Assembly (NCBI GenBank): GCA_963920575.1
Contig: OY986974.1
Span: 7,688,610 to 7,752,609, forward strand
Source of the DNA: Narthecium ossifragum
Lineage: Eukaryota > Streptophyta > Magnoliopsida > Dioscoreales > Nartheciaceae
Reading direction: 5' to 3'
Length of the DNA: 64,000 bases
Below are positions 136-55,768 of the stretch, one piece after another (position 1 is the stretch's first letter; each line of letters begins with the position of its first letter). The notes beneath the pieces were generated by a model. It was given only the letters and a program-made list of their open reading frames with translations, had not been told where the DNA came from and did not search any database. Position numbers and translations under genes: made by a program.

Positions 136-1141
136 TGTTGACTCTAACCTTGTTTTGATGATGTCAATATGTGTATGATGATAAAAGCAATGATGTTACA
201 TATATATATCCCTTAATTTGGAACTCTTTAAATTCATTTTTTTTATTTTTTATTACTTACGGTCGATGTCAAGATCGACCGTGAGATGGCACAGTTAATG
301 GTCAAGACATGGTTATTTTGGAGCAATCCTGACGGTCTATCCAAGCATCGACCCTGGATGCATCATTTCCTCACAGAGGATGATGTTCGATACGAAGATT
401 GACCGTAAAGACTAGACGGTTGATGCAATGGATGATCCAGGCTATTTTTTAGCGCGACAGATGATGAGACGGTCGATGAACCGGTCGACCTTGAAGACTG
501 GATGGTTGATAAAATCGATGATCCATGCTATTTTTTAGCGCTACAGATGATGTGATGGTCTATTCATGGATCAACTGTCAGCATGTGCAGAGTCAAAAAT
601 ATAGCCGTTGGAGAAAAATTAAATAACTATTCGGAGCTAATTTTGGAGGCTTTGAAGCACAATTATCAGAAGGAAGATGTTGTAAACTTGTGTAACAACT
701 AAGGTGATTATTTGTTTATATTTGAGCAAATTTATGTTTCATTTTCCTCATTTTTGAGAGCTTTAACATTTATAAAACTACTTCAAGTCGTGACGTAGAT
801 TTTGAGAGAATTTAAGAGAGACTTGGAAGATACCCAAGAGATCTTGCTAGATGATTGTAAGGTTGCCAAGCACCCGGAAACTTGGTTGAAAATATTGTAA
901 AAGTTCTTGTAACTAGTGAAATATCAAAGAGTACATTGAGTGAAATGAACGTAGACAAAGAGTTGGGTCGAGCCACTATAAATTCAGTGCACGCTCTCTA
1001 ACCCTTCTCCGATCCTTTGCTTGTTTAATTTACTTTTCATTTCATTTACAAGCATTCAAGAATTTTAGACTCATCCTACCTAGGTTTTCCATTATCGACT
1101 TATCGAAAAAGATCCAATTCATCCCCCCTCTTGGACTTTCA
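136..1141 (+). mobile_element. SIRE-like Ty1/copia 3' LTR
   Basis: The segment begins TGTTGACTCTAACC after a polypurine tract and ends in ...CCTCTTGGACTTTCA. Its first 50 bases resemble the 5' LTR start of the copia element at 27088. No tRNA primer site follows, so this is the 3' LTR. It is about 1.0 kb. The middle carries a run of 24-bp inverted repeats that is listed separately. The host-side target duplication cannot be checked because the 5' end is missing. Confidence 0.8.
259..492. repeat. 24-bp inverted-repeat array in the copia LTR (TCGA palindromes)
   Basis: At least four units with the geometry ACGGTCGAT, six variable bases, ATCGACCGT start at 259, 332, 383 and 469, with a weaker unit near 415. 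The arms are partly mutated (for example the left arm at 383 and the right arm at 332), but the total length stays at 24 bp. Spacers contain a CTCACAGAGGATGATG-like stretch that matches the cassette in the other copia element. Confidence 0.75.
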
Positions 1142-9840: not shown

Positions 9841-9995
9841 GATCGATTGCTCCTCGGAACGATCGATCGGACTCGTGAGCGAGTCGGTGGGTTTTGACCC
9901 ACTCGGATCGATCCGACTTGGTGTTGGGATCGATCCAGGGCGCGAGCGACCGATCGCTCCTTGGACCGATCGATCGCTCCTTGGAGCGATCGATC
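9841..9995. repeat. GATCGATC palindrome cluster in the 5' LTR
   Basis: GATCGATC or one-base variants start at 9841, 9861, 9906, 9928, 9968 and 9988, so neighbours within pairs are 20-22 bp apart. The 3' LTR of the same element has the block with a different repeat number: it lacks one CTCCTTGGA-containing unit and has an additional GGGATCGATCCGACTTGTTG-like unit, so the block has changed by slippage since insertion. Confidence 0.8.
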
Positions 9996-13836: not shown

Positions 13837-14913
13837 GTGCAGCAGAGCAGTTTTTCCAGGATCGTGTGCGACTACGCCGACGTGTTTCTCGAGGTGTTGC
13901 CAGGGCTTCCGTCGCCCAGAGAGATCGATTTTGAGATCGACCTAGTACTAGGTACCGCACCGATCTCTCTCCCAGCTTTCAGGATAGCACTAGCAGAGCA
14001 GAGTGAGTTGAGGACTCAGCTAGACGAGCTTACCAGCAGAGGCTTCATCCGTCCCAGCATGTCTCCCTGGGGGGCGCCAGTGTTGTTCGCAAAGAAGAAG
14101 GATGGTACCCTTCGACTTTGCATAGACTACAGGTGGCTCAACATGGTGATGGTGAAGAACATGTATCCGATGCCGAGGATCGACGACTTGTTTGACCAGC
14201 TGCGAGGATCTTCAGTGTTCTCGAAGATAGACCTCCGCACCGGCTACCACCAGTTGAGGGTTCGGGATTGCGACATCCCGAAGACGGCTTTTCGGACTCG
14301 GTACGGCCTGTACGAGTTCGTGGTGATGCCGTTTGGGTTGACGAACGCACCAGCAGCGTTCATGGATCTCATACAGAGGATCTTCCGGCATTTCCTAGAC
14401 GAGTTCGTGGTGGTGTTCGTCGACGACATCCTTATCTACTCCCGGTCAGAGGCGGAGCACGAGCGACACTTGGCGACAGTGTTGCAGCTACTTCGGGAGC
14501 ATCGACTTTATGCCAAGGCTTCCAAGTGCGAGTTCTGGCTTGCACAGGTGGGGTTCCTTGGACACGTGGTGTCGGCAGCAAGGATCTCAGTCGACCCCGC
14601 CAAGGTCGAGGCAGTGGTACAGTGGCAGAGACCGAGGACAATGTTCGAGGTCCGTAGCTTCTTAGGCCTGGCAGGTTACTACAGGTGGTTCGTGCGGGAC
14701 TTCTCCAGAGTTGCCGGACCGTTGACCAGACTGACACAGAAGGCCGTCCCGTTCGTGTGGGATAATGCTTGTGAGCGAGCTTTCGTGGAGCTGAGGACCA
14801 GGTTGACCAGTGCACCGGTGCTGATCGTCCCCGAGCAAGGCGTTGGTTACAGTGTCTACTGCGACGCCAGCGGTGAGGGTTTGGGGTGTGTCCTCATGCA
14901 GAGGGCCACGTAG
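13837..14913 (+). pseudogene. Ty3 reverse transcriptase and start of RNase H
   Basis: Same frame as gag and protease. Motifs in order: REIDFEIDL linker, [34 protein letters not shown] (first catalytic Asp), [12 protein letters not shown], and FVDDILIYS (14416-14427, the YVDD-type box, both Asp present), then the connection region KASKCEFW and [10 protein letters not shown]. RNase H starts [18 protein letters not shown] and is lost at about 14903, where one base is missing in a G run so the frame ends at 14913. The catalytic residues visible in RT are intact, but the part is not made from an intact polyprotein. Confidence 0.9.
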
Positions 14914-15660: not shown

Positions 15661-15945
15661 TGTGAGGGCCCGTCCCTCTGACCTGGCTCGACCGCGTGGG
15701 TCGAGAGTCGGTTTCCTGTTGGTTTGGTTCCGCGTCGGGCACGATCGGGCGATCGTGTGGCGGTTTGGACCCCGGGGGCATTTTAGTAAATATGCCCTCT
15801 GGTGGTCGGTTTCACACCCGCATTGCACCCACGGCCTTGGATTGAAGTGTGTGTTTGATTAGAATCCCTAGGGTGCGTCCGATCAGAAGATCGGAGCTCG
15901 ATCGGGAAAGATCGAATCGGACGGCTGAGATAGATTCGAAGTTTC

Positions 15946-15952
15946 TATATAA
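15946..15952 (+). promoter_or_regulatory. TATA box of the family A LTR
   Basis: TATATAA within TTTCTATATAAGCCTGTCC, about 285 bp into the LTR and just before the pyrimidine-rich leader, the expected place for the LTR promoter. No such box was seen at the matching place in the family A copy at 49767, where the sequence is different. Confidence 0.6.
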
Positions 15953-16486
15953 GCCTGTCCCTTTCTTCTCTTTCCTTCTCTTCTTCTCCTGTCATTTTCT
16001 CCCCTCTCTCTATCTCCTTCGGCTGAGCTAGAGTTTGGAGACTTGGACTTCGGAGCACGGATCTTGGCGGCTTGACCAGCGGGACGCGTGGAGGAGCTAC
16101 CCTACTTGCTCAAGTAGGTGTTTCTACCTCGATCTTTGGATCGGGTTCTCCTAGGATAGGTTTCATGTGCTTTCGCTGTAGGAATACCTGTTAGAATGCT
16201 TTGTAACTCCTTGCATGTGTAGTGTTGTTCATTTCCGGTATTCCTACATTGCGATTTCAGTATTCTAACGGTTGGTTTCTGTATTATCGCCGTTTTGTCG
16301 GTTTTCGTCAATTTGGACCTAGATTGGAGATTTAGCCGTCAAAAACTGGATTTCTTCATTGCATTAGCTTCCCCATTGTTAAATACACTTGCTTGCGAAA
16401 TTTCATCTTATTCCAACTTGATTTGATCCTCGAAATCCAAAGAAATGGATTTTCGGCACTGTTCTGATGAACTGTGCCAAGGCTCG

Positions 16487-16850
16487 ACGGTCGATCAGTG
16501 CATCGACCGTCAAGTGTTGTTTTACCCTTTCTGGACCTGACGGTCGACTGTCGGATCGACCGTCGCATCGACCGTCGGGCTTTGTCGGGATTTTCGACTC
16601 CCACGGTCGATGGATGGATCGACCGCGGGATCTTCTCTTTTTGCCATTTACCTGACGGTCGACTGTCGGATCGACCGTCGCATCGACCATCAGGCGCTGT
16701 TTGGTTTTGGGCTTCTCAGGGTCGATGGGTGGATCGACCGTCGCCCTTGGTTTTCTTCGCTTGGGTCTCACAGTCGATCGCTGGATCGACCGTGACATCG
16801 TCCGTGGTCTCACGGTCGATCTCCGGATCGACCGTGGCATCGTCCGTGAC
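16487..16850. repeat. 24-bp inverted-repeat array in the family A solo LTR
   Basis: Units of the ACGGTCGAT, N6, ATCGACCGT geometry start at 16487 and recur to about 16845, most with one or two mismatches. Between units is the spacer GCTTCTCAGGGTCGATG (16711-16727), also found in reverse complement inside the copia element at 27563-27579. Two adjoining 12-bp ATCGACCGT units occur twice (near 16546 and 16662). Confidence 0.82.
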
Positions 16851-18095
16851 CTTTTGAACTTGGTTTTCTGGTTTTTCTTGGATGGATTTGATTGGTGATT
16901 AATATCTAAATATGTTGGGAAGTATGTAGGTGGATTTCTTGACGTTTTCAAAGGACTTCCATCGGGTTTGAGGATCGATTCGAGTATCCTTTCCTTCTTG
17001 AGAAAACCTATGGTTTCGATTGCAATTGATATATGTTTGGATGTAGTTAATTGCTTAATGGTGTGCTTAGCCATTAGCTAGCTATGAGTGCTAGCTAATG
17101 AGAAATTGTGGAACCTTAGCCTCTTGCCAGCGGGTGTTGAGGGCTATTGTATATCTGTTGGACTTGTAACTGATGATGTGACATGTAGAGACATCTAGGA
17201 TAGTTGTTTGCCTAGGATCATGCATTGTATGCATTAGAAGCATTTGAGGTTAGGCGGGCGATGGTTTGGGTCGCCGATCCGAGGCTCTCGGGTAGCTCGG
17301 ATCTAGCCTTAGGGCCGTGGATGGGTAGTCAGGATTAGGGTGTGATTGTATTAATCGAAATCCCTTGTTGTTGAGGATTTGTGATAGTTGACTCTGATCA
17401 GTATATGAGGTTTAGAGGTCGTGTTGTCTTCCAAGGCCAAGTGCTAAGGATGGGTGTCGACGTCCCTGACTTGGTCTCCAGGCAGTGGTTTCCTGCTGGG
17501 TAGAGGTGATCCTACTGGTTCTTGTCCCTCTCCTGCCAGCGTGTTGGTTGATGTTTCCAGCGTGGTCGGTTGAGAAGACTAGGATCCCTTGGGGAGTCGA
17601 CAGGGTTGTGGGACCCGTGGCATCCGCTAGACTTGAGCTGGGAGACAACACTGTTGATGTTTTCCTCCTTTCAGTGTGCCGTAGAGTAGAACCCTACTGA
17701 GCTTATCGCTCACTCCTACCCGGGCTGCGTTTGCAGGTGCAGGCGGCTGCTCTTCTTCCGTGGAGCCGGCAGGATCGGCCTTTGGTGGCGCGAGTACATT
17801 CAAAGGCGCTTGAGGTTGCTGGAGGATGATCTGTTGTACTTTTTGATATATATGTATATGTTGTAAACATTTTGAGGACTTTGGGATTTTGTATAAATCT
17901 GTCTCTTGGGAGCTTTTGTATCAAATGTGAACTGTACAACTTGATGATATATTATAATTGAATCTGTTTCGCCTCTGGAATACAATTGTTTAAATTATCC
18001 GTCTTTTCCGCTTTGTATCGCGCCGATTGAAGATGAATAGTGAAAGGAACCCTCACGCCCCGTCCTGGATGGATTTTCTGGGTCGGGGTGTGACA

Positions 18096-19230
18096 GCACC
18101 AGCGGACTCCAGGGTTACTTCAGCCGCTTCCACTAGCTGAGTGGAAGTGGGAGCACATCACGATGGACTTCGTGACCGGGCTACCGAGATCTCCTAGGGG
18201 GAATGACGCGATTTGGGTCATCGTTGATCGATTGACCAAATCGGCGCACTTCTTGCCTTTGCGGGTGACAGACTCGACGGACAGGTTGGCCAGCTTGTAC
18301 GTTAGAGAGGTGCTCAGACTACATGGAGTTACAGTTTCTATCGTGTCAGACCGTGACCCCAGGTGCACCAGCAGGTTCTGGCGAGACTTTCAGGAGGCAG
18401 TTGGCAAACTCCTGACTTTCAGTACGGCTTTCCATCCGCAGACAGACGGGCAGTCAGAGTGGACGATCCAGATCTTGGAGGACATGCTGAGAGCATGTGT
18501 CCTCGACGCAGGAGGCAGCTGGGAGGAGCACGTTCCCTTGGTAGATTTTGCCTACAACAACAACTACCAGTCCAGTCTTGGAGTAGCACCTTTCGAGGCG
18601 TTGTACGGTAGGCTGTGTCGTTCCCCAGTGTGCTGGATAGAGGTTGGAGAGGCTTCACTCACCGGTCCAGACATCGTCAGACGGTCGTCAGAGAGGTTAG
18701 TGCAGATCAGGCAGAGGCTTCTGACGGCTCAGAGCCGGCAGAAGAGTTATGCAGATCAGAGGCGACGACCGTTGGAGTTTGCAGTCGGCGACCGAGTGTT
18801 CTTGCGAGCATCGCCGTACAGAGGGTCCGTCAGGTTTGGCAGAGGTGGTAAGTTGGCGCCGAGGTTTGTCGGGCCGTTTGAGATCCTAGAGAGGGTCGGC
18901 GAGGTAGCTTACCGCTTGTATCTTCCTCAGCACATGTCTGCTGTGCACCCGACTTTCCATGTGTCGATGCTGAGGAAGTATCACCCAGACCCGTCTCATG
19001 TCATCTGGGTGGATGACATTGAGCTTGAGGCAGACGCGAGCTTTGTTGAGCAGCCGGTTCGGGTACTTGACCGGAGGGATCAGGTCTTGCGGGGCAAGAC
19101 GATTCCCTTGGTCAAGGTACTGTGGAGGCACAGAGGCACTGAGGAGATGACCTGGGAGCGCGAGGTGCGCATGCGACAGGAGTTTCCGCAGCTGTTCTAT
19201 TCTCGAGGTACTTCTTGTCCTGTCTTCTAG
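18096..19230 (+). pseudogene. Ty3 integrase core and chromodomain (C-terminal part of pol)
   Basis: Open from 18097 to a stop at 19228-19230. The DDE core shows HITMDFVTGLP (first Asp at 18166), VSIVSDRDPR (second Asp) and HPQTDGQSEW (Glu), with WVIVDRLTKSAHFLP between. A GPFEIL region follows. The last 55 residues (VEQPVRVLDRRDQVLR...KVLWRHRGTEEMTWERE) match the chromodomain of Tekay-type chromoviruses, thought to steer insertion to heterochromatin. All three catalytic residues are present, but the piece is separated from its start by the nested LTR. Confidence 0.9.
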
Positions 19231-19303: not shown

Positions 19304-21729
19304 TGTGAGGACCAGTCCCTCTACCCCTGTGGCTCGTTGTAGACCGCAAGGGCAATTTGGTAAATTGCGCCTTGTTGGTTTATTTCACACCCGCGTGTGC
19401 ACACACTGGCCTTGTATGTGTTAGTGTTTGTTTAGAATGGTTAGGTGGACCCGGGATCGGAAGATCCCCGCTCGGGCGCACGGAAGCTTGCCTTTGGGCA
19501 GCTGACGACCCTTGACCGATCGATCGCTCCTCGGAACGATCGATCGGACTCGTGAGCGAGTCGGTGGGTTTTGACCCGCTCGGATCGATCCGACTTGGTG
19601 GTGGGATCGATCCGACTTGTTGTTGGGATTGATCCGGGGCGCGAGCGACCGATCGCTCCTTGGAGCGATCGATCGGAATCGCGTCGGTGGTTTTTCTGCT
19701 TCGCGAGGACGGCCGCCGTTGGTCGTCGCTCTCTCCTGTCAGAGGGGGAGGACTTTCCCTCCCCTCCTTTCACTTTTTTCCCCTTCCCCCGGCTGTCCCC
19801 TCCCCCTTTTCCTTCTTTTGTCCTTCCCCTCCTTCCTTCTTCTTCTTCCTCTTCTTTCTCCTCACCCGAAGGCTCTGTTTTCTCTCTTTCCCGCTGGCGA
19901 GGTTCTTCTCCTCCGTTCTCCCTCCTCTGACCATTGTTTTGGGTGTTCTAAGGCTCATTGGATCCGTGACAACGAGAGGAAGATTCTTGAAGTGGTTTGG
20001 AACCTTGTTGGTGATCAACTCGCGGGGAATCAGTCGAGGAAAGCGCTGTTAGGTAGGTTTCTACCGACTGATGTTGTTTTTGGGTTTTCTCTAGATCTAG
20101 CCGTTGGATCTTGTTCATCTTTGTCTTGTTGGATTTCTCATGCCTAGTAGAATTATGTATTTAAGTTTCATGATCTTTGGATGAGTTTTGAGTTGGATTT
20201 ATGCATGATTAAGCTCGGATTCTCTATTTTCTGCTGTTCTTGAAGAACAGCTGGCTTGCGGCGAGTTTTCCGGCCGGTACGTACATGATCTTGGGTTGTG
20301 ATGAACATAAGAGTTGTAGATCTTTGAATTTACTCTCTAACCCAACTGAGTTCATAATTTTACGATTTTCCTACGATTTGTTATGAATTGTTTGCTGGAG
20401 GGCTGCGTTGCAGCAATTAATTGGTAAGTTAGTTTGATTAGCGATTTTGATTAGTGTTTTCCCGTTAATCCAACCGTTGGATGATCCTGAATTTTGGATA
20501 TGATGATCCTGGTATATACATCTACTGATGGCTAAGTTGGATCTTGAATTTGACGTCGTGTGGACGTCGGATCGACGGGATCAATTAGCCCCTAAGTAGA
20601 GGATTTGGGTGTTTGAATATAATATTATATTTCAGAATATAATATTATATTGTTTACTGTTCATCATCGTTTTTGGGGTTGCTTCCCATTACAGGAGTCC
20701 GCGGTTGACGGTCACGGTACCGTCGTAATGCCGGGACCCGCTGCGGATCGGCTGGCAGCGGTCGGTAGTACCGCTGCAGCGATCCGATAGACTTATATGA
20801 TGTTTGTCATACTGTTGCATGTCTATCTCCTGTTTGTGTATGTCATAGCATACATCGTTGTTTTATGCATTAGTTGCATTGCTTAGGGCGTGGGTGATCT
20901 TTGGGTCGCCGTCCCGAGGCTGGAAGCTCGGACTTAGCCCGAGGACCGGGGTTGGGTAGTTTGGACCCGGTTTGAATTGTGGTGTCCAGTCGATTTGATG
21001 ATAGGCTTAGATGACTGGTACACTTGTTGCTTGATGATGTAGAGGTCGTGTCGGCCTCGAGTCGGATGCTGAGGTGTAGCCGGTGTTCCACTGTGTTGAC
21101 TCTTGAGTGAGAGGCCCTCTCAGCGGTGCCTTTTACGGCCTGCAGTGTCGGGTTCCTGCATGTGAGTCAGCAGTATTTGTTGAGCTTACTGAGGGCTGCT
21201 CCTGGGCCTCAGGGACACGCGGTGGGGTTATGGGACCCCTGTATACACCCAGGTCTTACTTGAGGGCGACACTCTTGCGTTTCTCTCTTCCTTCTGTGTA
21301 TCGTAGTGTAGAACCCTACTGAGCTTAGTGCTTACACCTACCCGGGCTGCGTTTTGCAAGTGCAGGCGCCAGTTCTTCTTCCGTGGCCCCTACCGGGCAA
21401 TTGGTCGGTGGTGCGGCGGCGCCAGGTGGAGTCTGAGAGGTGGTGATCCTTTACAGTTTTTATCCTATGTTAGATAGTCTCCTACGGGAGTAATGTTGTA
21501 TTTGAACGTCCCCCTCTCCGAGGATATGTATATTAAATCTTTTTGAGTTCGTAAATCTGTGGTTCGAGGTTTCATTAAATTATTGTCTTTTAATTGGGGG
21601 GTGCTTTTGGTGAACTGTTAGGGAGACCAATAGGTTAGAGGGAACCCTCGCCATTATCTTTTCGCGGTTTGTTAGGTTTCGATTCGCGTCGCCCGGCCCG
21701 GTTGGGCTTTCGCGGGTCGGGGCACGACA
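19304..21729 (+). repeat. 3' LTR of the complete Ty3 element (family B)
   Basis: 2,426 bp, starting TGTGAGGACCAG and ending GGGGCACGACA, followed by target duplication GTGAG. By eye it differs from the 5' LTR by scattered substitutions, by the deletion in the 5' copy after 11172, and by repeat-number changes in the GATCGATC block. This is not a fresh insertion, but no age is given here. Confidence 0.92.
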
Positions 21730-27087: not shown

Positions 27088-27625
27088 TGTTGATCATAAC
27101 CTTTTTTTGATGATGCTAATATACATTAAATGATAAAATATATGTTTAATATTTATTACCCCTTTAATTGGAAATCTTAAATTCAATATTTAAGTCAGTT
27201 TTGTACTGACGGTCGATGCATAGATTGACCGTGGGAATGTGACGGTCGATCCATGGATCGACCGTGTGGTTGCACGTTGGATGCACCCTACTTGGCAATA
27301 TGCATTATTGGCTCACGGTCGATCGGTGCATCGACCGTGGGAAGCGATTTTCTTCACAGAGCCTGATGGACGATGCGACGGTCGATGCGGCGGTCGACCG
27401 TGGGGCATTAATGAAGAAAAGTGAAGAAGCGACGGTCAATCCGAGCATCGACCCTAGGAAGCCATTTTCTTAACAGAGCCTGATGGACGATGCGACGGTC
27501 GATGCGGTGGTCGACCGTGGCGCATTTATGAAGAAAAGTAAAGAAGCGACGGTCGATCCGAGCATCGACCCTGAGAAGCGATTCTCTTAATAGAGGCTGA
27601 CGGACGATGTGACGGTCGATGTCTT
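27088..27625 (+). repeat. Partial copia 5' LTR carrying the 24-bp inverted-repeat array
   Basis: Starts TGTTGATCATAACC, similar to the LTR at 136. From 27209 it is filled with 24-bp inverted repeats starting at 27209, 27242 (a perfect palindrome over all 24 bases), 27315, 27378, 27432, 27495 and 27549. The spacer CATCGACCCTGAGAAGC (27563-27579) is an exact 17-base reverse complement of a spacer in the family A Ty3 LTRs. The LTR breaks off near 27625. Confidence 0.85.
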
Positions 27626-28602
27626 CTAGCAAAAACTCATCCGATTCAAGTGAAGGAGATGACGATGAGGAGTTGGCGATGATATCAAGAAGAATATAAA
27701 AGATCTTCAAGCGCCAAGGAGGAAAGAAATTCTTCAAGAAACAATTCTTCAAAGGTGAAAAGTATAATCCTTCCTCTTCTAACTCAAATGAAATCATATG
27801 TTATGAGTGTAGAAAATCTGGACACTACAAGTCCGATTGCCCTCAACTCAAGAAGCCAACAAAGAAGGAGTTCAAGAAAAAGAAGGCAATGATGGCTACT
27901 TGGGGAGAAAGTGATGTGGAGACCTCATCCGATGAAGAAGAACAAGAGGTAGCCAACATATGCTTAATGGCACATGGAGATGAGGAAGAAGAAGAAAATG
28001 AGGTAGAGGATGAGCTTACATTTGAAGAACTTTTTGATGCTTATCATGCTTTAGCTAATGATTTCAAAGTCCTTAAAAAGAAATACTATGCTACTTGTAA
28101 GGACTTGAAGAAAGTAGAGGAAGAGAAATTAGATGCCATGCATAGGATTGGAACATTAGAAAATGAAAACAAATGCATGCTAGACAACAACTCTAGTGAC
28201 ACTAGTAATACACTTGTTGAGGATGAACTCAAGGACACTCAATATGAGCTCACCATATTGAAGAACACAAACTATGATATGCAAAGGGAACTTATCTTCT
28301 TGAGGAAATCTAAGAGAGATCTCACTCTTGAGGTTAATGACTTAAAAATCACTATAGCTAAATTCGTGAATAGTAAAGACAAGTTAGATGAGATCCTTGA
28401 TAGCCAAAGGAACTCCTTAAACAAGGAAGGAATTGGCTACAACCGTAGGAAGGTGAACAACCAAAAGAAGACTAACTTTGTTAAATCTTCTTCTCATCCT
28501 TCTAAGGTAGCACAAGCACCTATATGTCACTATTGTTGCAAAGTAGGTCACATTGCACCTAGTTGCTATCTAATGAGGCATGCTAATGCTAAGAAAATTT
28601 GA
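27626..28602 (+). pseudogene. Copia gag with two CCHC zinc knuckles
   Basis: Begins in mid-gag. The first knuckle is CYECRKSGHYKSDC (27799-27840); a stop lies upstream near 27696. The open part from 27889 (238 codons) has acidic tracts, LCLMA-like ICLMAHGDEEEE, a coiled-coil region around residues 50-150 with heptad-like Leu/Lys/Glu, and a second knuckle CHYCCKVGHIAPSC (28525-28566). Two knuckles and a long coiled coil fit SIRE/Maximus-type gag. Confidence 0.85.
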
Positions 28603-28699: not shown

Positions 28700-28919
28700 G
28701 TAGGAATGCATGAGATCCAAGATCAAGACCAACACAAAGTCTAAAAGATGGTACCTTGATAATAGATGCTTAAGACACATGACGGGAGAAAGGAGCATAT
28801 TCTCAACCTTCCAATCCAAAGATTGTGGAATGGTGACCTTTGGAGACAATGCAAAATAAAAAATAATTGGCATTAACAATATTGGTAAAACCTCTTCCAC
28901 TATTATTGAAAATGTTCTT
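28700..28919 (+). pseudogene. Copia protease remnant, active site DNR instead of DSG
   Basis: The usual WYLDSGCSRHMTG block reads WYLDNRCLRHMTGERS. The catalytic D-S-G is D-N-R (28758-28766), which should inactivate it. Downstream, VTFGDNAK is followed by a stop, then IIGINNIGKTS. No long frame covers this part. Confidence 0.75.
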
Positions 28920-30106
28920 TTGGTAGAAGGTTTGAAACATAATTTGCTTAGCATTAGTCAATTATGTGATAGAGGTAACAAAGTCATTTTTGAAGATTCA
29001 AAATGCTATGTTAAGAATGCTATTAATGATAAAATCATACTAGTTGGTCATCGTGATGGTAATGTGTATACATTTTATCTTAATGATCTTGTTTGCCATG
29101 ATGATTTATGTCTTAGTGCTTTAAATGATAATTCTTGGTTATGGCATAGGAGACTTGGACATGCTCACATGGATTTAATTTCCAAACTCTCTCGAAAAGA
29201 CCTTATTCTTGGACTTCCCAAGATCAAATTCGAGAAAGATAGGATTTTTGATGCATGTCAAAGAGGAAAGCAAGTAAAATCCTCTTTCAAGTCTAACGAT
29301 ATAGTTTCCACCACAAGAGCACTAGAACTCATTCATATGGACCTTTTTGGGCCTACTAAACAGACTAGCTTAGGTGGTAGCTCATATGGGTTTGTTTTAG
29401 TAGATGACTACACTAGATACACTTGGGTGATTTTCCTTGCACACAAAGATGAAGTCTTTGAGGAATTCACAAACTTCTGTAGAAGAGTCCAAAATGAGAA
29501 AGGTATTCTCATTACATGCATTAGAAGTGACCATGGAGGAGAATTCAAGAATTTCCATCTAGAAAAGTTTTGCAATGACAACGGGATTTCCCATAACTTC
29601 TCTTCACCGAGAACCCCTCAACAAAATGGTATTGTTGAAAGGAAAAATAGAACCCTACAAGACATGGCTAGAACTCTATTATGTGAAAATAATCTTCCTA
29701 AGTATTTTTGGGCCGAAGCAATTAATACTTCTTGCCATGTGATAAATAGAGTAACCTTGAGACCCATTTTGAAGAAAACCCCTTATGAGCTTTGGAAAGG
29801 AAGAATTTCAAATATTTGGTACTTTAGAGCTTTTGGTTGCAAATGTTTGATGCTAGATCCGATGAAGGAGTTTTTCTTGGATACTCGGGGAGAAGCAAGA
29901 GTTATAGAATCTTCAATAAAAGGACCTTGGTGGTTGAAGAATCAATGCATGTTACATTTGATAAAATGATTTTAATTTCTAGTAGAATTGATAATGGTAA
30001 AGATGAGGAAATCCCAAATGACAAATCAAAAGATTTATTGGATGAAACCCAAAATGATGTTGAAGAATTGAATGATAGATTTGAGGAATCCCTTGAGATT
30101 ACCTAG
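28920..30106 (+). pseudogene. Copia GAG_pre-integrase and integrase core
   Basis: The open frame 28920-29969 has LLSISQLCDRG, SWLWHRRLGHAHMDLI (zinc-binding start), then the core ELIHMDLFGP (first Asp), TCIRSDHGGEFKN (second Asp) and PQQNGIVERKNRTLQDMAR (Glu), all catalytic residues present. The FGCKC block follows; a frameshift near 29850 moves the coding into the next frame, where FLGYSGRSKSYRIFNKRTLVVEES continues to 30106. Integrase would insert the DNA copy. Confidence 0.87.
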
Positions 30107-32280: not shown

Positions 32281-33184
32281 AATGTTATTTGTCCGATGCG
32301 GGATTATGGAGCGAGGTTTCACAAATCTTAATGCATGTTCAATGGAGAGTAGATGCGCTTCCGGGCCCAACATCGGTGGCGCATCTTTGGCTTTGGGGTC
32401 TGTACTTTGGGTTCACTATTATTGAATGGCTTGGTTCGGCTAATATGTCCAATTTCATTAGCCAAAGTGCCAAATTCACTCACCTTTTGTTCCTAATTAG
32501 TTGTCCAATTTCAAGCGTTATCTGACTAATATAATGGAAACATGGGCCACTTGGACTTTAACAAATGACTTTATTGGGGTTTTTTTTTCTATATTCCCTT
32601 TTAAATAGTGTTATTTGTGTCAATACCCCTCTAATGTTTTTTGTCGTCTGCACAGGATGAACTTTGACCATCACTAATTTTGAAATCTACATTTGCTCGT
32701 GATTATGTAATATCACTGTTGGGAAACAAATATGGCTCAAACTTTACAACTAGCAACACTAATTTCAAAATTAATCATGATAAAAAATTATAAGGATACG
32801 AGGATAAAAAAGAATATTTGTAAATATATATAAGCATTTACAAACTTTAAAGGGGTATTTTTACAAATATCACCATGACAGGGTATATAAATAACGGAAA
32901 ATTGATGTTTAGTCTCTTTTGGAGACTTTATTTGCTGTATAGTCTTCTTGAAAGATTTTAAGCCATTTAGTCCCTTTTTGGACAGCTGTACTTTTTTTAT
33001 CTCTAAAATACTCTTTATGTATTTTTTTAAATGAGAGATGGATGAATAGTTTTGAATTAGGTGGTTGGCATTAAATGAAGTGGTTGGGAATATATACACC
33101 TATTCCCAATACATGGAAGGCATGCATGCATCCACTTTATGGCCGGATGCATGCATTAATGGGGGCATTAATAGTAAAATTGGG
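32281..33184. other. Unassigned AT-rich sequence
   Basis: No coding domain or known repeat recognised on either strand. Short open frames are not convincing. Confidence 0.5.
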
Positions 33185-33900
33185 GGAGTAACTACCAATT
33201 TATATGGGAAGTAACTACCAGTTAACTGTGAAGTATCTACTAGTTTAATTGACAAGTAAATACCAGTTTGAATGGGAAGTAACTACCAGTTGAAGTGTGA
33301 AGTAATTACAGTTTTTTTGTAAAGTAATTACCGCTTAAACTGAGAAGTAACTACCAGTTAAATGGGGGAAGTAACTACCAGTTTGGATGGGAAGTAACTA
33401 CCAGTTTGGGGGGGAGTAACTACCATTATGATGGTAAGTAACTACCATCATATTAGAGAAGTAACTACCATTACAATGCGAAAGTAAAAGTAAATACCCA
33501 TACTTGGGAAAATAACTACAAGTGACCACCATTGTATTGGGGAAGTAACTACCATTACAACAGAAAAGTAACTACTAATACTTGGGGGAAGTAAGTACCC
33601 CAACATAATGGTAGTTACTCCCCCCCAAACTGGTAGTTACTTCCCATCCAAACTGGTATTGGGGAAGTAACTACCATTACAACAGGAAGTGACCACCATT
33701 GTATTGGGGAAGTAACTACCATTACAACAGGAAAGTAACTACCAATTTTGGTAGTTACTTCTCAGTTTGAAGACGGGCAATGTGGGGGGAACGCCGGTGG
33801 CGGAGCTGGAGCAGACCCGGGGACGCCGGTGGCGGCTGGAGGCGAAGTAACTACAATTTTTATGGGAAGTAACTACCAATTTTGGTAGTTACTTCCCAGT
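33185..33900. repeat. Minisatellite of GTAACTACC units, about 23 bp, with inverted blocks
   Basis: Units such as GAAGTAACTACCAGTTTGG repeat at roughly 22-24 bp from 33185. Between 33607 and 33657 and again near 33750 and 33880 the units appear in the opposite orientation (GGTAGTTACTTCCC), so the array contains internal inversions that would fold back. Units vary in the last few bases. Confidence 0.85.
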
Positions 33901-34243
33901 TTTGGGGCCTGGGAATGTGGCGGGGGACACCGGTGGCGGAGCTAGAGCAGACCTGGGGACGCCGGTGGCGGCTGGAGGTGACTGGAGGCGGCTGGAGTCG
34001 GGATCCGCCGTTGGGAGGTGGCTGGAGGCGGCGTCGGGTGAAGCTGGGAGGTAACTGGAGGCGGTGGCTGGTGGCTGGGGACGCCGGACGAAGCTGGGAG
34101 GTGGCTGGGACGCCGGACGGAGCTGTGAGGTGGCTGGGGACGCCGGACGGAGCTGGGAGGTGGCTGGAGGCGGCGTCGTGTGAAGCTGGGAGGTGGCTGG
34201 AGGTGGTGGCTGGTGGCTGGGGACGCCGGACGAAGCTGGGAGG
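33790..34243. repeat. GC-rich minisatellite running into an assembly gap
   Basis: Units built from GGACGCCGGACGAAGCTGGG and AGGTGGCTGGAGGCGG repeat with variants. A longer block (GCGTCGGGTGAAGCTGGGAGG...GGACGCCGGACGAAGC, about 34028-34094) returns near 34161-34235. The array is cut by the N gap. Long open frames here come only from repeat composition and the N run. Confidence 0.85.
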
Positions 34244-34443
34244 NNNNNNNNNNNNNNNNNNNNNNNNNNNNNNNNNNNNNNNNNNNNNNNNNNNNNNNNN
34301 NNNNNNNNNNNNNNNNNNNNNNNNNNNNNNNNNNNNNNNNNNNNNNNNNNNNNNNNNNNNNNNNNNNNNNNNNNNNNNNNNNNNNNNNNNNNNNNNNNNN
34401 NNNNNNNNNNNNNNNNNNNNNNNNNNNNNNNNNNNNNNNNNNN
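34244..34443. other. Assembly gap, 200 N
   Basis: Exactly 200 N, a common placeholder length, so the true distance is unknown. The left flank is a tandem array, which is the likely cause of assembly failure. Confidence 0.97.
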
Positions 34444-42776: not shown

Positions 42777-45250
42777 TGTGAGGACCCGTCCCTCTACTCC
42801 TGGGTCGACCGGTTGGGTCGGGCCCGTGGCTCGTTGGTTTGTTTCGCGTCGAGCGCGCGATCCGGTGGATCGCATTGTTTCTTGGACCCCAAAGGCAATT
42901 TGGTAAATTGTGCCTTGTTGGTTTGTTTCACACTAGCGTGTGCACACACTGACCTCGTTTGTGTTAGTGTTTGTTTAGAATGGCTAGGTGAACCCGGGAT
43001 CGAAAGATCCGGACTTGGGCTTGAGTTCTTGCCCAAGTTTAGCTTTCACCACAAAGAGGATCGATCCTTCCTATGTAGAAGATCGATCCTTGTGGTGCCA
43101 GAAAGTCTTGTGAAATCGTCATGAAGGATCGATCCTCCCTTGAGGAAGGATCGATCATTCATAAGTCGGTTGGTTTTCTGCTTCGCGAGGACGGTCGCCG
43201 TTGGCCGTCGCTCTCCCCTGTCAGAGAGGGAAGACTTCCCCTCCCATTCTCTCACTTTCTCCCCCTTTCCCCGGCTTTCCCCTCCCCCTTTCCCCTCCTT
43301 TCTTCCCCTCCTCTTCCTCCTTCTCCTCTCTTCTTCTTCCTTCTTCTCTTCTTTCCCGCGGTGCTCTGTTTCTTCCCTTCTCCGCCGGCGAGCTTCATCT
43401 CCTCCGTTCTCCCTCCTCCGACCATCTTTTTCAGCGTTCTAAGGCTCGTTGGATTCGTGGCAACGATAGGAAGATCGCTGAAGTGGTTTGGAGGCTTGTT
43501 AGTGATCAAATCGCGGGGAATCAGCCGAGGAAAGCGCAGCTAGGTAGGGTTATACCTACTGTGTTTATTTCGGGTTTTCTTGAGATCTAGCTGTTGGATC
43601 TTCTTGATCCTTATTTTGTTGGATTCCTTATACCTGTTAGAATTACTGATTTAAGTTTCATGTTAATCAGTTGAGATTTGAGTAGGTTTTATGGGTGATT
43701 AGTCTCGGATTTCTGGTTTTCTGCTGTTCTGCAGTTCTTGAGAAACAGCCGGCTTGCGGCGAGTTTTCCGGCCGGCGATTACATGATCTTGGCTTTTCAT
43801 AAACATAAGAGTTGTAGATCTATTTGTTAGCTTTCTATTCCATCTTGTTTCGTAATTGTCTGATTTTTCTACAATTTCTTATGAATTGTTTACTGGAGGG
43901 CTGCATTGCAGCAATTAATTGTTAAGTTAGTTGATTAACGATTTTTGATTAGCGTTTTCCCGTTAATCCAACCATTGGATGATTATGAAATTTGGATATG
44001 TTGATCCTGGTATATACACCTACTGGTGGCTAAGTTAGATCTTGAATCCGACATCGTTTGGACGTCGGATCGATAAGATCAAATAGCCCCTAAGTAGAGG
44101 TTTTGAGGGTGTTTGATTATAATATTATATTTCAGGATATAATATTATATTGTTTACTATTCATCGTCGTTTTCGGGGTTGCTTCCCGTTGCAGGAGTTC
44201 GCGGTTGACGGTCGTGGTACCATCGTAATGCCGGGACCCGCTGCGGATCGGCTGGTAGTATCGCTGCAGCGATCCACTAGACTTATATGATGCTTGACAT
44301 ACTGTTGCATGCTTCTCTTCTTATCTGTGTATGTCATAGCATGCATTGTTGATCTGTGCATTAGTTGCATTGGTTAGGGCGTGGGTGATCTTTGGGTCGC
44401 CGTCCCGAGGCTGGAAGCTCGGACTTAGCCTTAGGACCGGGGTTGGGCTGTTAGGACCCGGTTTGAATTGTGGTATCCCGTCGATTCGATGATAGGCTTA
44501 GATGACTGGTGCACTTGTGGCATGATGATTGTAGAGGTCGTGTCGGCCTCAAGTTAGGTGTTGAGGATGCCACCGGTGACGGGTCTTATTCTTTGGGCAG
44601 TGTCCGTTCCTGCCAGTAGGGGCATCAGTGTGGGCCCATGGCGAGTTGGGTGACCACAGCTGGAACCCTGTGACACTAGGCGTATCCAGGATGGGCCCAG
44701 TCCGTTGGGGTGACCATGGTTGGATATGCCTAGAGATCACCGGTGAATGGTAATGGGACCATTGTAGCTCACTCGAGTCTGGCTTGAGGGCGACACTGTT
44801 GCGTTTCCCTCTTCCTTCTGTATGGCGTAGTGTAGATCCCTACTGAGCTTAGTGCTCACACCTACCCGGGGCTGCGTTTTGCAGGTGCAGGCATCAGTTC
44901 CTCTTCTGTGGCCCCTACCGGGCAGTTGGTCGGCAGTGCGGCGGCGCCTGGTGGACTTTGAGAGGTGGTGATCGTTTACTGCTTTTACCCTATGTTAGTT
45001 AGTCTCCTACGGGAGTAATGTTGTACTTTGAATCTTCCCCTCTCCGAGGATTTGTATATTAACACTTTGAGTTTATAATCTGTGGTTCGAGGTTTGCTAA
45101 TCAATGTTATTTTAATTGAGGGTGTTTTGGTGAACTGTTAGGGAGACCAGTAGGTTAGAGGAAACCCTCGCCAGCTTTGTTTTCCGCGTTTTGTAGGTTC
45201 CGGTTCGCGTCGCCCGGCCCGGTTGGGCTTTCACGGGTCGGAGCGCGACA
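42777..45250 (+). mobile_element. Family B solo LTR, plus strand
   Basis: 2,474 bp, TGTGAGGACCCG...GGAGCGCGACA, with perfect 5-bp duplication CTCAG (42772-42776, 45251-45255). GATCGATC palindromes start at 43059, 43081, 43127 and 43149, two pairs each exactly 22 bp apart. A hairpin TAGGTA/TACCTA lies at 43541-43558, and an AT palindrome pair near 44122. It inserted into a minus-strand copy of its own family. Confidence 0.94.
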
Positions 45251-46418: not shown

Positions 46419-46484
46419 GATCGATCCGGGACATTTGGATCGATCCAGAAAATAGTGGATCGATCCGGAATATTTGGATCGATC
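46419..46484. repeat. Four GATCGATC palindromes at 19-20 bp spacing
   Basis: GATCGATC starts at 46419, 46438, 46458 and 46477, mostly within GGATCGATCC, in the minus-strand family B LTR just before the nested family A LTR. Confidence 0.85.
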
Positions 46485-46608: not shown

Positions 46609-49158
46609 TGTCACACCCCGACCCAGAAAACCCATCCAGGACGGGGCATGAGGGTCCTAACTCTATTCATCATCAACCGGCGCAGTACAAGCGGAAAGGA
46701 TAAACAATTTAAGCAAAAGTATTCCAGAGGCTAAGCAGATTTTAATCATAATACAACATCAAGTCTTACAATATCTGAGTTCCAAAATACAGATTTATAC
46801 AACATCCCAAAGGTTCTCCAAAGAGGGTACAACATGCATAATTATATATCAAAAAGTTACAACAGTTATATCCTCCAACAAAACCTCAGACGCCTCTGGA
46901 TGTACTCGCGCCGCAAAAAGCCGAACCTGCTGGCTCCACTGAGGAGGAACTGCCGCCTGCACCTGCAAACGCAGCCCGGGTAGGAATGAGCAAAAAGCCC
47001 AGTAGGGTTCTACTCTACGGCACACTGAAAGGAGGTAAACAACAACAGTGTCATTTCTCCGCCTAAGTCTAAAGGATGCCACGGGGTCCCATAACCCCTA
47101 TCGATTCCCCAAGGGATCCTACTCTTCTCAACCGACCACGCTGGGAATACCATCCAAACACGCTGGGAGGAAACCAAGAACCAGAACCAGTAGGAACACC
47201 CTTTACCCAGCAGGAAGCCACTGCCTGGGGACACACGTCGGGGATATCGACAACCATCCTTAGCACTTGGCCTTGGAGAGCCGACACGACCTCTAAACCT
47301 CAAGCAGTATAATATTCCAGTCCGACTAACGCAATCCTCAATCACCAAAGATTTAGATCAACAATCACACCCTAACCCTGACTACCCATCCACGGTCCTA
47401 AGGCTAGATCCGAGCTACCCGAGAGCCTCGGATCGGCGACCTAAAACATCGCCCGCCTATCCTCAAATGCTTCTAATGCACACAATGCATGAGCTTAAGC
47501 AAACATCTACCCTAGATGTCTCTATATGTTACATCAACAGTTATAAGTTCAACAGATATACAATAGCCCTCGGCACTCGCCGGCAAGAGGCTAAGGTTCC
47601 ACAATTCCTCATTAGCTAGCACTCATAGCTAGCTAATGGTTAAGTAAACAACCAGACATTTAATTTCTATCAAGCTTGAATTAAATGCAAACACAACCAT
47701 AAGTTTGCTAAAAAGGGGAGAAACTCGGATCAAATCTCAACCCCGATGAAAACCCTTTGAAAACCTCATCAAATCCATCTATAAACCTCCCAACACGTTT
47801 AAGACTCAATCAAAGTTGAAAGCCATTCAAGAAGAATCAAAGAACACTATTCAAAGGGTCACGGACGATGCCACGGTCGATCCGTGGATCGACCGTGAGG
47901 CCACGGACGATGCCACGGTCGATCCGTGGATCGACCGTGAGACCCATACGAAGAAAAATCAAGGGCGACGGTCGGTCCAACCATCGACCCTGAGAAGCCC
48001 AAAATCGAACAGAGCTTGACGGTCGATCCGACGGTCGACCGTCAGGTAAAAGGGAAAAGAAGGAGATCCCGCGGTCGATCCATGCATCGACCCTGGGAAG
48101 CCAAAATCTCGACAGAGCCCGACGGTCGATCCGACGGTCGACCGTCAGGCCCAGAGTAAATATACTAAAGCATGACGGTCGATACATAGATCGACCGTCG
48201 AGCTGACGGTCGATGCACCGATCGACCGTCGAGCTCCAGACGCAAAATACCAGAAATCCTAATTCTAAGATTTCAAGAATCAAAACATGTTAGAATACCA
48301 TCAAATTTTGCAAGCAAGTATATTTTGAGATGAGGAAACTAATGGTGTAAAGAAATCCAGTTTTTAACGGTTGAATCCCATTTTAGGTCGGAAAACCAAA
48401 AACCGACGAAATCGTGAGATACGGAAACTAACCATTGTAACACCAGTTTTGCAATGCAAGAATACAAGGAATGAGCTACATTACATAGGCAAGGATCTAC
48501 AAGCATGCTATCATGGTATTCACAGCAAAAACACAAACATCCTAACCAAGTAGAACCCGATCCAAGGATCGAGGTAGAAACACCTACCTTAAACGCAATC
48601 CCAGCTTCTCCACGCGTCCAGCCAACCGCGCCGTGAAGATCCGCTGCTCAAGCTCAGTCCTCCAAGGTCAAGCCCAGCCGGAGGGGAAGAGAAGAAGGGG
48701 AGAAGAAGAAGAGACGTCGGTGGAGAAGAGAAGGAAGAACCAGCCAAAGAAGGGAAGGAGAGAAGAAAGGAGAGAAGAGAGGGAAGCAGGTGGGGGTTGG
48801 AGCCAACTGCTCCAACCACCCTCCACTCACCAGGCCCCTAATGGGCCGGATCTTCTCTAACGGGTCAAAAAACCCGTTGACCCGCTAACGAGCCCGAAAA
48901 CGAACTTTAGCGCGCCCGAGTTGGGATCTTCCGATCCCGGGCCCACCTAGCCATCCTAAACAACCACATACAACAATCCAAGGCCGTGGGTACAACGCGG
49001 GTGTGAAACCGACCACCAGGGGGCATATTTACCAAAATGCCCCCTGGGGTCCAAACCGCCACACGATCGCCCGATCGTGCCCGACGCGGAACCAACTCGA
49101 CAGGAAACCGGCTCTCGACCCACGTGGTCGAGTCAGGTCTGAGGGACGGGCCCTCACA
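46609..49158 (-). mobile_element. Family A solo LTR, minus strand
   Basis: 2,550 bp; starts TGTCACACCCCGACCC and ends GACGGGCCCTCACA, flanked by perfect 5-bp duplication TCGAC (46604-46608, 49159-49163). It carries the 24-bp inverted-repeat array (about 47870-48235), a hairpin AGGTAG/CTACCT at 48572-48589 and a purine-rich leader (48660-48790). It is nested in the minus-strand family B LTR. Confidence 0.94.
47870..48235. repeat. 24-bp inverted-repeat array in the minus-strand family A LTR
   Basis: Several units of the 24-bp geometry, for example near 47874, 47917, 48017, 48121, 48174 and 48204. The spacer CATCGACCCTGAGAAGC is at 47982-47998 and a related one, CATCGACCCTGGGAAGCC, near 48085, followed by ACAGAGCCCGACGG, which parallels ACAGAGCCTGATGG in the copia element near 27472. 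Confidence 0.82.
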
Positions 49159-50335
49159 TCGACAACTCTTATTCTCATCACAACCTAAGATAATACACGT
49201 ACCAATCGAAAAACGTGCCGCAAATCGGCTGTGAAACCAGAAAATCCGAGATAAAACATGCATAAATCCTACTAAAATCTTAACCAAAGTTCATGAAACT
49301 TAAACCAGAGATTATACTAAGCAACATGCATCCAACAACACAATTACAGCAAGATCTAACGGCTATACGAAGAGAACACTCCTAAACAACTCTCGTATGT
49401 AGAACACCTACGAACTGCGCTAATCCTCGGCTGATTCCCCGCTAATCAGTCACCAACAAGGTTCCAAACCACTTCAGGGATCTTCCTCTCGTCGCCACGG
49501 ATCCAACGAGCTTTAGAACACCCCAAACGGTGGCCGGAGGAGGGAGAACGGAGGAGAAGAAGATGGCTGCCCCGGAAGGAAACAGAGGAAAAAAACAGAA
49601 CCGCGGAAGAGAAGAAAGGAGAAGGAAGAAGAAGAGAAGGAAGAAGAGAAGGAGAAGAGAAGGGGAAGGCCGGGGAAGGAGGGGGAAGGTGAAGGAGAAG
49701 GTGAAGGAGAGATCCTCTCCTCTGACAACGGAGAGCGACGGCCATGCCGGCCGTCCTCGCCGCTCATGTGAGGGCCCGCCCCTCAGACCTGACTCGACCA
49801 CGTGGTTCGAGAGCCGGTTTCCTGTTGGTTTGGTTCTGCGTCGGGCACGATCGAGCGATCGTGTGGCGGTTTGGACCCCAGGGGCATTTTGGTAAATATG
49901 CCCCTGGTGGTCGGTTTCACACCCGCGTTGCACCCACGCACTTGGATTGATGTATGTGGTTGTTTAGGATGGTTAGGCGGACCCGGGATCGGAAGATCCC
50001 AGCTCGGGCGCGCTAGAGCTCGGTATCGGGCTCGTTAGCGGGTCAACGGGTTTTTGGCCCGTTAGAGAGGATCCGGCCCATTAGGGGCCTGGTGAGTGGA
50101 GGGTGGTTGGAGCAGTTGGCTCCAACCCCCATCCGCTCCCCTCTCTTCTCTCCTCTCTTCTCTCCTTCCCTTCTTCTCTTTCCTTGGCTGGTTCTTCCTT
50201 CTCTTCTCCATCGACGTCTCCTCTTCTTCTCCCCTTCTTCCCTCTCCTTCGGCTGGGCTTGATCTTGGAGGGGCTGAGTAGCGGATCTTCGTGGCAAGGT
50301 TGGCTGGACACGTGGAGAAGCTGGGATTGCGTTTA

Positions 50336-50353
50336 AGGTAGGTGTTTCTACCT
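50336..50353 (+). promoter_or_regulatory. Hairpin at candidate splice donor in family A LTR
   Basis: AGGTAG, loop GTGTTT, CTACCT; the sequence TTTAAG|GTAGGT looks like a splice donor. A candidate acceptor TTTGCAG lies near 52052 in the conserved CCCGGGCTGCGTTTGCAG block. Confidence 0.5.
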
Positions 50354-50695
50354 CGATCCTTGGATCGGGTTCTACTAGGTTAGGATGTTTGTGTTTTTGC
50401 TGTGAATACCTTGATAGCATGCTTGTAGATCCTTGCCTATGTAATGTAGCTCATTCCTTGTATTCTTGCATTGCAAAACTGGTGTTATAATGGTTAGTTT
50501 CCGTATCTCACGGTTTCGTCGGTTTTTGATTTTCCGACCTAAAATGGGATTTAACCGTTAAAAACTAGATTTCTTTATACCATTAGTTTCCTCACCTCAA
50601 AATATACTTGCTTGCAAAATTTGATTGTATTCTAACATGTTTTGATTCTTGAAATCTTAGAATTAGGATTTCTGGTATTTTGCGTCTGGAGCTCG

Positions 50696-51160
50696 ACGGT
50701 CGATCGGTGCATCGACCGTCAGCTCAACGGTCGATCTATGTATCGACCGTCATGCTTTAGTATATTTCCTCTGGGCCTGACGGTCGACCGTCGCATCGAC
50801 CGTCGGGCTCTGTCGAGTTTTTGGGTCCCCAGGGTCGATGGATCGATCGACCGTGGGGCCTTCGCTTTTTCGCCATTTACCTGACGGTCGACCGTCGGAT
50901 CGACCGTCGCATCGACCGTCGAATCGACCGTCGCATCGACCGTCGAATCGACCGTCGCATCGACCGTCGAATCGACCGTCGCATCGACCGTCGAATCGAC
51001 CGTCGCATCGACCGTCAGGCTCTGCTTGGTTTTGGGCTTCTCAGGGTCGATGGTTGGATCGATCGTCGCCCTTGGTTTTCTTCGTATGGGTCTCACGGTC
51101 GATCCACGGATCGACCGTGGCATCGTCCGTGGCCTCACGGTCGATCCACGGATTGACCGT
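50696..51160. repeat. 24-bp inverted repeats with an expanded 12-bp array
   Basis: Units of 24 bp start at 50696, 50727, 50780, 50831, 50884, 51043, 51095 and 51137. Between about 50896 and 51015 the half-unit CGNATCGACCGT is repeated ten times, with N alternating C and A after the first, giving a 24-bp higher-order period. The other two full family A copies have only one or two half-units here. The spacer GCTTCTCAGGGTCGATG is at 51036-51052. Confidence 0.9.
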
Positions 51161-52451
51161 GGCATCGTCCGTGACCCTTTGAACAGTGTTCTTTGATTCC
51201 TTTTGAATGGCTTTCAACTTTGATTGAGTCTTAAACGTGTTGGGAGGTTTATAGATGGATTTGATGAGGTTTTCAAAGGGTTTTCATCGGGTTTGAGATT
51301 TGATCCGAGTTTCTTCCCTTTTTAGCAAACTTATGGTTGTGTTTGCATTTAATCCAAGCTTGATAGAAATTAAATGTCTGGTTGTTTACTTAACCATTAG
51401 CTAGCTATGAGTGCTAGCTAATGAGGAATTGTGAAATCTTAGCCTCTTGCCCGCGAGTGCCGAGGGCTATTGTATATCTGTTGAACTTATAACTGTTGAT
51501 GTGACATATAGAGACATCTAGGATTAGATGCTTGCTTAAGCTCATGCATTGTATGCATTAGAGGCATTTGAGGTTAGGCGGGCGATGTCTTGGGTCGCCG
51601 ATCCGAGGCTCTCGGGTAGCTCGGATCTAGCCTTAGGACCGTGGCTGGGTAGTCAGGATTAGGGTGTGATTGTCGATCTGAATCTCTGATGATTGAGGAT
51701 TGCGATAGTCGGCTTGAATCTTTGTTTGAGGTTTAGAGGTCGTGTTGTCTTCCAAGCCCAAGTGCTAAGGATGCAACCGAGGAGTTCCCGACGTGGTCCC
51801 CAGGCAGTGGTATCCTTGCTAGGTAAGGGTTAGAGCCTGCATGTTACTGTTTCCGTGGTCCTCCTGGTAACATGTTCAGGAGAGAGGTTTCATGACAGGA
51901 ACCTTTGGGACATCGGTGGGTTATGGGACCCGTGGCATCCTTTAGACTTAGGCTGGGGGACAACACTGTTGTTGTTTTGCTCCCTTCAGTGTGCCGTAGA
52001 GTAGAACCCTACTGAGCTTTTTGCTCATTCCTACCCGGGCTGCGTTTGCAGGTGCAGGCGGCAGTTCCTCCTCAGTGGAGCCAGCAGGTTCGGCTTTTGG
52101 CGGCGCGAGTACATCCAGAGGCGCCTGAGGTTTGGTTGGAGGATATGGTTGTTGTAACTTTTTGATATATAATTATGCATGTTGTGCCCTTTTTGGAGAA
52201 CCTTTGGGATGTTGTATAAATCTGTATTTTGGAACTTAGATATTGTAAGACTTGATGTTATATTATGATTAAAATCTACTTAGCCTCTGGAATACTTTTG
52301 TTTAAATTGTTTAACCTTTCCGCTTGTACTGCGCCGGTTGATGATGAATAGAGCTAGGACCCTCACGCCCCGTCCTGGATGGGTTTTCTGGGTCGGGGTG
52401 TGACAGCTCAACTGCCCTGCTACAAGCTCAACTGCCCAGCTACAGTACCCG

Positions 52452-52501
52452 GATCGATCCAAGGCCAAAATGGATCGATCCAACACTAGTTTGGATCGAT
52501 C
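52452..52501. repeat. Three GATCGATC palindromes at 21 bp spacing
   Basis: GATCGATC starts at 52452, 52473 and 52494, each inside GGATCGATCC, in the last piece of the minus-strand family B LTR. Confidence 0.88.
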
Positions 52502-55690: not shown

Positions 55691-55768
55691 AGCATTATAA
55701 TACCGGAGCAGAGGTTCTTGAATCTCTGGCCATCTTGGATTGCTGTCATTGTAAGGAGCACAATTATA

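Follow-up and report, generated by a model that had tools for sequence, protein, structure and literature searches.

A palindrome array apparently shared, in opposite orientation, by copia and Ty3-type LTRs of Narthecium ossifragum

Given that one and the same 24-bp inverted repeat recurs in long terminal repeats (LTRs) of both copia and Ty3 type within a 64,000-nucleotide stretch of the Narthecium ossifragum genome (the window), we asked how two retrotransposon superfamilies might have come to hold it in common and what it might do there. Specifically, we scored all 24-mers of the window against ACGGTCGAT-N6-ATCGACCGT, counting mismatches over the 18 arm bases. With at most three mismatches, this scoring of the whole window returned 34 units, located in five clusters; admitting four mismatches, of which no more than three in the left arm, yielded 35 units, and lifting the left-arm limit yielded 37, two of which overlap other units. 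No unit appeared in 20 simulated first-order Markov sequences of 64 kb, and none with up to four mismatches lies outside the five clusters in the 64-kb window; what does lie outside them is six isolated half-sites with one mismatch or none. These numbers agree with the original prediction, which had placed about seven units at 27209-27572 (seven counted), four or five in a copia LTR at 259-492 (four counted, plus a degenerate fifth at 555), and many in the LTRs of a Ty3 family, here family A (7 at 16487-16835, 8 at 47873-48229, and 8 at 50696-51160). The exact pattern had no matches in viral contigs, while the 23 prokaryote stretches that contain it hold one site each and are spread over many taxa, among them two Bradyrhizobium and three Roseibium/Labrenzia; we take these single sites as chance.

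The spacing of the two arms is similarly regular. Among 55 arm pairs with at most two mismatches per arm, at most three in total, and a spacer of 0 to 30 bp, the spacer is 6 bp in 34 and never 3 to 5 or 7 to 10 bp, in line with the constant 24-bp geometry claimed beforehand; within the 64-kb window the spacers are thus not spread around six. The other lengths, 18 (12 pairs), 11 (4), 23 (3), 2 (1), and 30 bp (1), trace to extra half-sites at 12-bp steps or to overlapping half-sites. The six middle bases had been described as varying freely, but they approximate SSNNSS, with G or C in 124 of the 140 outer positions of the 35 units. Half-sites are present also as direct repeats of 12 bp, with a period of 12/24 at 50888-51016, and the 24-bp unit is best read as two 12-bp half-modules set face to face. 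Since its length follows from these two half-modules, the proposed connection to the 24-nt size of siRNAs is unsupported, all the more because it is the 9-bp arms that stay conserved, whereas both N6 and linkers have diverged.

Two of the five clusters are located in copia LTRs. The first comprises five units (259..578, plus strand) in the U3 region of a 3' LTR (copia1; 136..1141, plus strand), whose element body extends beyond the left window edge and whose boundaries, set by eye, include a terminal CA; a TATA-like box follows downstream of the array at 771. This LTR displays two traits of Sireviruses, a polypurine tract (PPT) followed by an AT/TG attachment site (junction GGAGAG-AT-TGTTGA at 128-141) and a poly-C signal near the LTR 3' end (ATCCCCCCTCTTGG at 1121-1134), and by eye there is a possible additional PPT copy, GGGGGAG, at about 72-78. 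The stretch preceding the PPT aligns with the LTR start, taken in reverse complement, at a gapped local score of 16, a value uncalibrated by shuffling, and an inverted repeat at the PPT/3' LTR junction is a feature of nearly half of the classic copia elements as well (PMC2829016). The second cluster, at 27209-27572, occupies the U3 of an incomplete 5' LTR (copia2; 27088..27621, plus strand) that begins at about 27088, where it aligns with the start of the copia1 LTR, and is broken off at about 27621. The array itself (27209..27621, plus strand) holds seven units and a cut eighth and includes a 117-bp dimer repeat. At 27621-27622, judged by eye, the U3 array is fused directly to mid-gag-like sequence, as if the remaining LTR and the start of gag had been deleted. 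Downstream of this junction lie an ORF with a CCHC motif (27700-28602), followed, by eye and in an element that is broken, by a long run of charged residues and a further CCHC-like motif, and then an ORF with gag-pre-integrase and integrase domains (28860-29969). Within the best 120 of 6480 integrase matches, which come from many plants and carry no lineage labels, the top relatives show 64-65% identity at 90% coverage, and one shows 70% at 63%.

The remaining three clusters are located in family A LTRs of 2435, 2550, and 2639 bp, namely, A1 (15661..18095, plus strand; TGTGAGGG...GTGTGACA), A2 (46609..49158, minus strand), and A3 (49767..52405, plus strand). Because each is flanked by a 5-bp target site duplication (GTACC/GCACC, identical at 4 of 5 positions, TCGAC/TCGAC, and GCTCA/GCTCA, respectively), the three copies are independent solo LTRs. 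A1 is nested in a Ty3 element of a second family, family B, between its reverse transcriptase (RT) ORF (13837-14913) and its integrase ORF (18094-19230). A2 and A3 (46609-52405) face each other head to head across roughly 600 bp that include a fragment of a family B LTR. As solo copies have no internal part, family A is classed as Ty3-type by its LTR only, through similarity to family B LTRs near the start (71-83% over 128-250 bp) and near the 3' end (75-86% over 118-180 bp); two family B LTR copies, in turn, flank gag, protease, RT, and integrase in Ty3 order. The A1 array (16487..16847, minus strand) consists of seven units with a 115-bp repeat, the A2 array (47861..48229, plus strand, hence antisense to its LTR) of eight units, and the A3 array (50696..51172, minus strand) likewise of eight, together with the 12/24-bp half-site expansion mentioned above. 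From the absence of units beyond the five clusters it follows that the family B LTRs of the window have none; two of their copies do contain a lone half-site, with one mismatch and at the same place (9859 and 19536), so that family B may have lost an array.

We then compared the linkers between units across the two superfamilies. With half-sites masked, 10 copia and 15 family A linkers gave a best score of 14, reached by 1 of 200 shuffles, and a top-20 score sum of 183 versus at most 168 in shuffles, the match being between the copia sense strand and the antisense strand of the Ty3 LTRs. One 27-nt linker, L1, was then aligned without shifts between four copia copies, three of which are those of copia2 (27339-27365, 27456-27482, and 27573-27599, plus strand), and six family A copies. 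This comparison showed 368 identities in 648 positions, compared to 185 in reverse register and a maximum of 297 in 20,000 column shuffles. Variants of the arms follow the same order, as read from the table of units: an ATCGACCCT-type arm is present in 8 of the 35 units, every one of which adjoins an L1, and a GTCGACC-type arm in 9, of which 8 lie on the far side of L1, either directly or past 12-bp half-sites. Counted by linker, 8 of the ten L1 copies have an ATCGACCCT-type neighbor and 8 a GTCGACC-type neighbor. In one P-L1-Q-P comparison, 51 of 54 arm, 11 of 18 N6, and 16 of 27 L1 positions are identical. Outside the array, no similarity between copia and family A LTRs was detected (the highest score does not exceed the mean of 15 in shuffles). 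Because the L1 linker and the site-specific arm variants match in register, we read the array as a single homologous module, present in copia and in Ty3 family A and inverted relative to transcription. The argument that the two superfamilies are too distant to share LTR sequence by descent therefore fails for the array. Nor did we see, at least in simple form, copia units that are explained by insertion of the Ty3 family, in that the copia LTRs showed no match to Ty3 LTR sequence other than the array itself.

As for its history, the Ty3 lineage probably acquired the array from a copia LTR by copying at the DNA level, for instance, through an antisense nested insertion that was subsequently reduced by deletion. 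The direction from copia to Ty3 appears likelier because such arrays are common in Sireviruses and family B LTRs, in this one window, carry no unit. Simple template switching between two sense RNAs is disfavored because the array is inverted.

Did the arms then evolve under constraint? We compared A1 with A2 and A3 in four directed comparisons, in which sites were classed as arm, linker, N6, or rest of the LTR by the labels of one copy of each pair. Arm divergence amounts to 2.7, 4.2, 7.4, and 8.7%, compared to 17-20% in linkers, 29-31% in N6, and 21-22.5% in the rest of the LTR; among these older family A copies, the arms thus evolve about two- to sevenfold more slowly than the linkers. Fisher tests on these classes treat sites as independent. 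When the arm mask was shifted along the LTR, divergence was as low as at the actual placement, or lower, in 0 of 2087 positions for A1 to A2, 0 of 2087 for A1 to A3, 1 of 2194 for A2 to A1, and 5 of 2176 for A3 to A1; other blocks of the LTR are likewise well conserved. Restricted to CpGs, the test of arms versus the rest fell below 0.05 in three of six directed comparisons. The recent pair A2/A3 (arms 2.8-3.0%, N6 6.2%, linkers 10%, rest 7.5%) does not discriminate, because 324 of 2194 mask shifts are equally low. These rates bear on the possibility that the arrays have no function and are tandem repeats kept alike by slippage or gene conversion and spread by recombination. Array growth and loss are indeed clear, as seen in the 12-bp expansion of A3, the 117-bp repeat of copia2, and the 115-bp repeat of A1. 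However, position-specific arm variants have been retained at corresponding sites, both within and across the superfamilies, where homogenization would erase them, and linkers and N6 diverge right beside the slower arms, which makes this explanation improbable in our judgment.

The same slow arms might instead belong to palindromes that act as RNA or single-stranded DNA hairpins, with transcribed U3 stem-loops feeding small-RNA production or packaging, roles that have been proposed for the LTRs of maize Sireviruses. All arrays fold far better than their mononucleotide shuffles (z from -4.5 to -13.6; 30 shuffles each), and maize Sirevirus palindromes are described as small-RNA hotspots (PMC5311732, PMC10760457). 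Yet any palindrome array folds well, and conservation in the arms contrasts with divergence in N6 and linkers. Moreover, 34 of the 315 arm pairs in the 35 units have changed, all on one side, 20 of the 34 no longer pair, and none is compensated. As independence alone predicts just about 1.8 two-sided changes, this shows no sign of compensation but falls short of proof against it. The hairpin explanation accordingly strikes us as unlikely, if somewhat less so than the absence of function. Slow arms together with the lack of compensated pairs favor a dimeric DNA-binding protein over RNA folding; of the two readings offered originally, a putative dimer-binding site fits both the slow arms and the fixed geometry, whereas the 0 of 34 compensated pairs speak, weakly, against a folding constraint.

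Taken together, we consider it somewhat more probable than not that the clusters represent a Sirevirus-type array of dimer sites, copied at the DNA level from copia into a Ty3 lineage and bound by a host protein. They would constitute a cis-regulatory array of the Sirevirus kind, in which repeated palindromic motifs precede the promoter. Each 24-bp unit would most likely be the site of a dimeric, sequence-specific host DNA-binding protein that contacts two facing ACGGTCGAT half-sites, and several units may jointly raise or protect LTR transcription. A related alternative, to which we give about as little weight as to the absence of function, or marginally less, is that the arrays are targets of an anti-silencing protein, comparable to the VANC motifs of VANDAL elements, and that all elements bearing the array would be shielded from methylation alike. 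Dense, dynamic arrays of short motifs in noncoding DNA do resemble VANC targets as these are described in PMC5735166, according to which VANC6 motifs occur too in the unrelated AT9TSD1. Furthermore, CpGs are enriched in the arrays: the observed/expected ratio is 1.14-1.75 in the five arrays versus 0.59-0.83 in the remaining sequence of those four LTRs that are complete (copia1, 1.14 versus 0.59; A1, 1.52 versus 0.83; A2, 1.56 versus 0.75; A3, 1.75 versus 0.72; copia2 array, 1.53). Against this alternative, VANC21 motifs point in one direction, whereas the units here are paired head to head.

If the dimer sites are indeed bound by a host protein, their mutual spacing might matter as well. Start-to-start distances between units cluster near 31, 42, 52, 63, and 73 bp, with 86 bp found twice and 159 bp once, and for 30 spacings the best period within 7-25 bp is 10.7 (R 0.86). 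Since spacings are inherited together, we tested seven spacing classes, picked by hand and omitting 159, which gave R 0.845 at 10.5 bp with P 0.001, or P 0.026 over all periods from 7 to 25; copia spacings alone are weaker (R 0.74). The other palindrome arrays of the window, built on GATCGATC, show no such phase (R 0.32, P 0.26). We therefore rejected helical phasing as a general rule, it being weak across all periods and absent in the GATCGATC arrays, and regard the phasing of units at about 10.5 bp as a lead only. It is tempting to speculate, and we do so tentatively, that an entire regulatory cassette, the row of dimer sites and the distances between them, was transferred from one superfamily to another and functions whichever way it is turned, so that a single DNA-binding protein would control both copia and Ty3 elements, and that the sites perhaps lie on one face of the helix. 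The inverted presence of this type of array in a second, distant superfamily hints that regulatory switches can be handed from one mobile element to another. Should such an exchange have occurred, a homologous, slow-armed array in a Ty3-type LTR would mean that control regions are tradable between superfamilies, and unrelated elements would be predicted to be switched on or silenced together; the copia/Ty3 pair of arrays would also offer a natural replicate for finding the binding protein.

LTR retrotransposons are numerous in the window, and further repeats were noted. GATCGATC palindromes number 40 in the whole window, compared to about one expected from uniform base use, and form clusters in or beside family B-type LTRs (9861-9995, 19518-19674, 43059-43156, 46419-46484, 52452-52501, 58326-58423, and 59203-59231); palindrome arrays with related cores seem common in family B-type elements. 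A further palindrome array at 62028-62469, with core CCGATCGATCGG and 11 GATCGATC cores, lies within an unassigned repeat. We considered it as a third relative of the shared array and rejected it, its linkers being not significantly like those of family A (P 0.09) or copia (P 0.29). Elsewhere, a tightly packed, partly inverted array of about 23 bp around GGGAAGTAACTACC spans 33183-33978, a run of 200 N at 34244-34443 is probably an assembly gap, and a Helitron helicase-like domain extends across two minus-strand ORFs at 55061-56899.

How does this array compare with known systems? The U3 region of Tnt1 contains the BI/BII boxes, repeated and partly symmetric enhancer boxes present in few copies; the units here are alike as repeated, partly symmetric U3 boxes, and differ in sequence and lineage. 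The symmetry of Tnt1 box I is mentioned in PMC2829016. VANDAL VANC targets (PMC5735166) are, in the aspects covered there, similar in being short motifs in tandem, noncoding arrays with fast turnover, but they belong to DNA transposons with their own VANC gene, and their VANC21 motifs keep a single orientation. A closer parallel is the maize Sirevirus palindrome CACCGGACNNNGTCCGGTG, reported in both Copia and Helitron elements (PMC10760457), which is likewise one LTR palindrome in two kinds of element; there, however, the motif alone is reported as shared, whereas here linkers and array order match as well, and between copia and Ty3.

The closest counterpart is found in Sireviruses themselves. 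In 13 of them, palindromic repeated motifs (RM boxes) were described, with a CGG-CCG core in 12 (Bousios et al. 2010, PMC2829016); they number at least eight copies per element, occupy for the most part the LTR's upper half, ahead of the TATA box, and form CpG islands. Sireviruses are also cited as preferring insertion at short palindromes (PMC5738225). The RM was termed Sirevirus specific because the other Ty1/copia elements compared lacked it, and the Ty3/gypsy passages of PMC2829016 do not test Ty3 LTRs. Literature on Tekay and other chromoviruses, Sireviruses, gypsy elements, palindromes, and chimeric copia/gypsy elements, judged by the titles and abstract openings listed, yielded no Sirevirus-type array in a Ty3 LTR, nor is one reported in the corresponding parts of PMC6911290, PMC11963269, PMC5632726, and PMC5738225; a literature search with four 10-mers of the unit matched 128 papers, and no retrotransposon title was among the 40 listed. 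Judged against the published RM descriptions, the copia arrays here are the same in having CGG-CCG palindromes in many copies, CpG rich and located in U3 upstream of the TATA box, and the RM of the Vitis Sirevirus, CGGTCGACCG (PMC2829016), is the core of ACGGTCGACCGT, which is formed in variant units of the window. Copy number, at least eight per element for RM, is five in the copia1 LTR and seven plus a cut one in the copia2 LTR, both from elements that are incomplete here, and the copia array begins closer to the LTR edge than RM averages and is more distant from the TATA-like box. The arrays of the window differ further in their longer unit with a 6-bp spacer, in their conserved linkers, and in the homologous, inverted array in a Ty3-type LTR. 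The copia clusters look like a new member of the RM kind of Sireviruses, and the novel part is the copy in Ty3.
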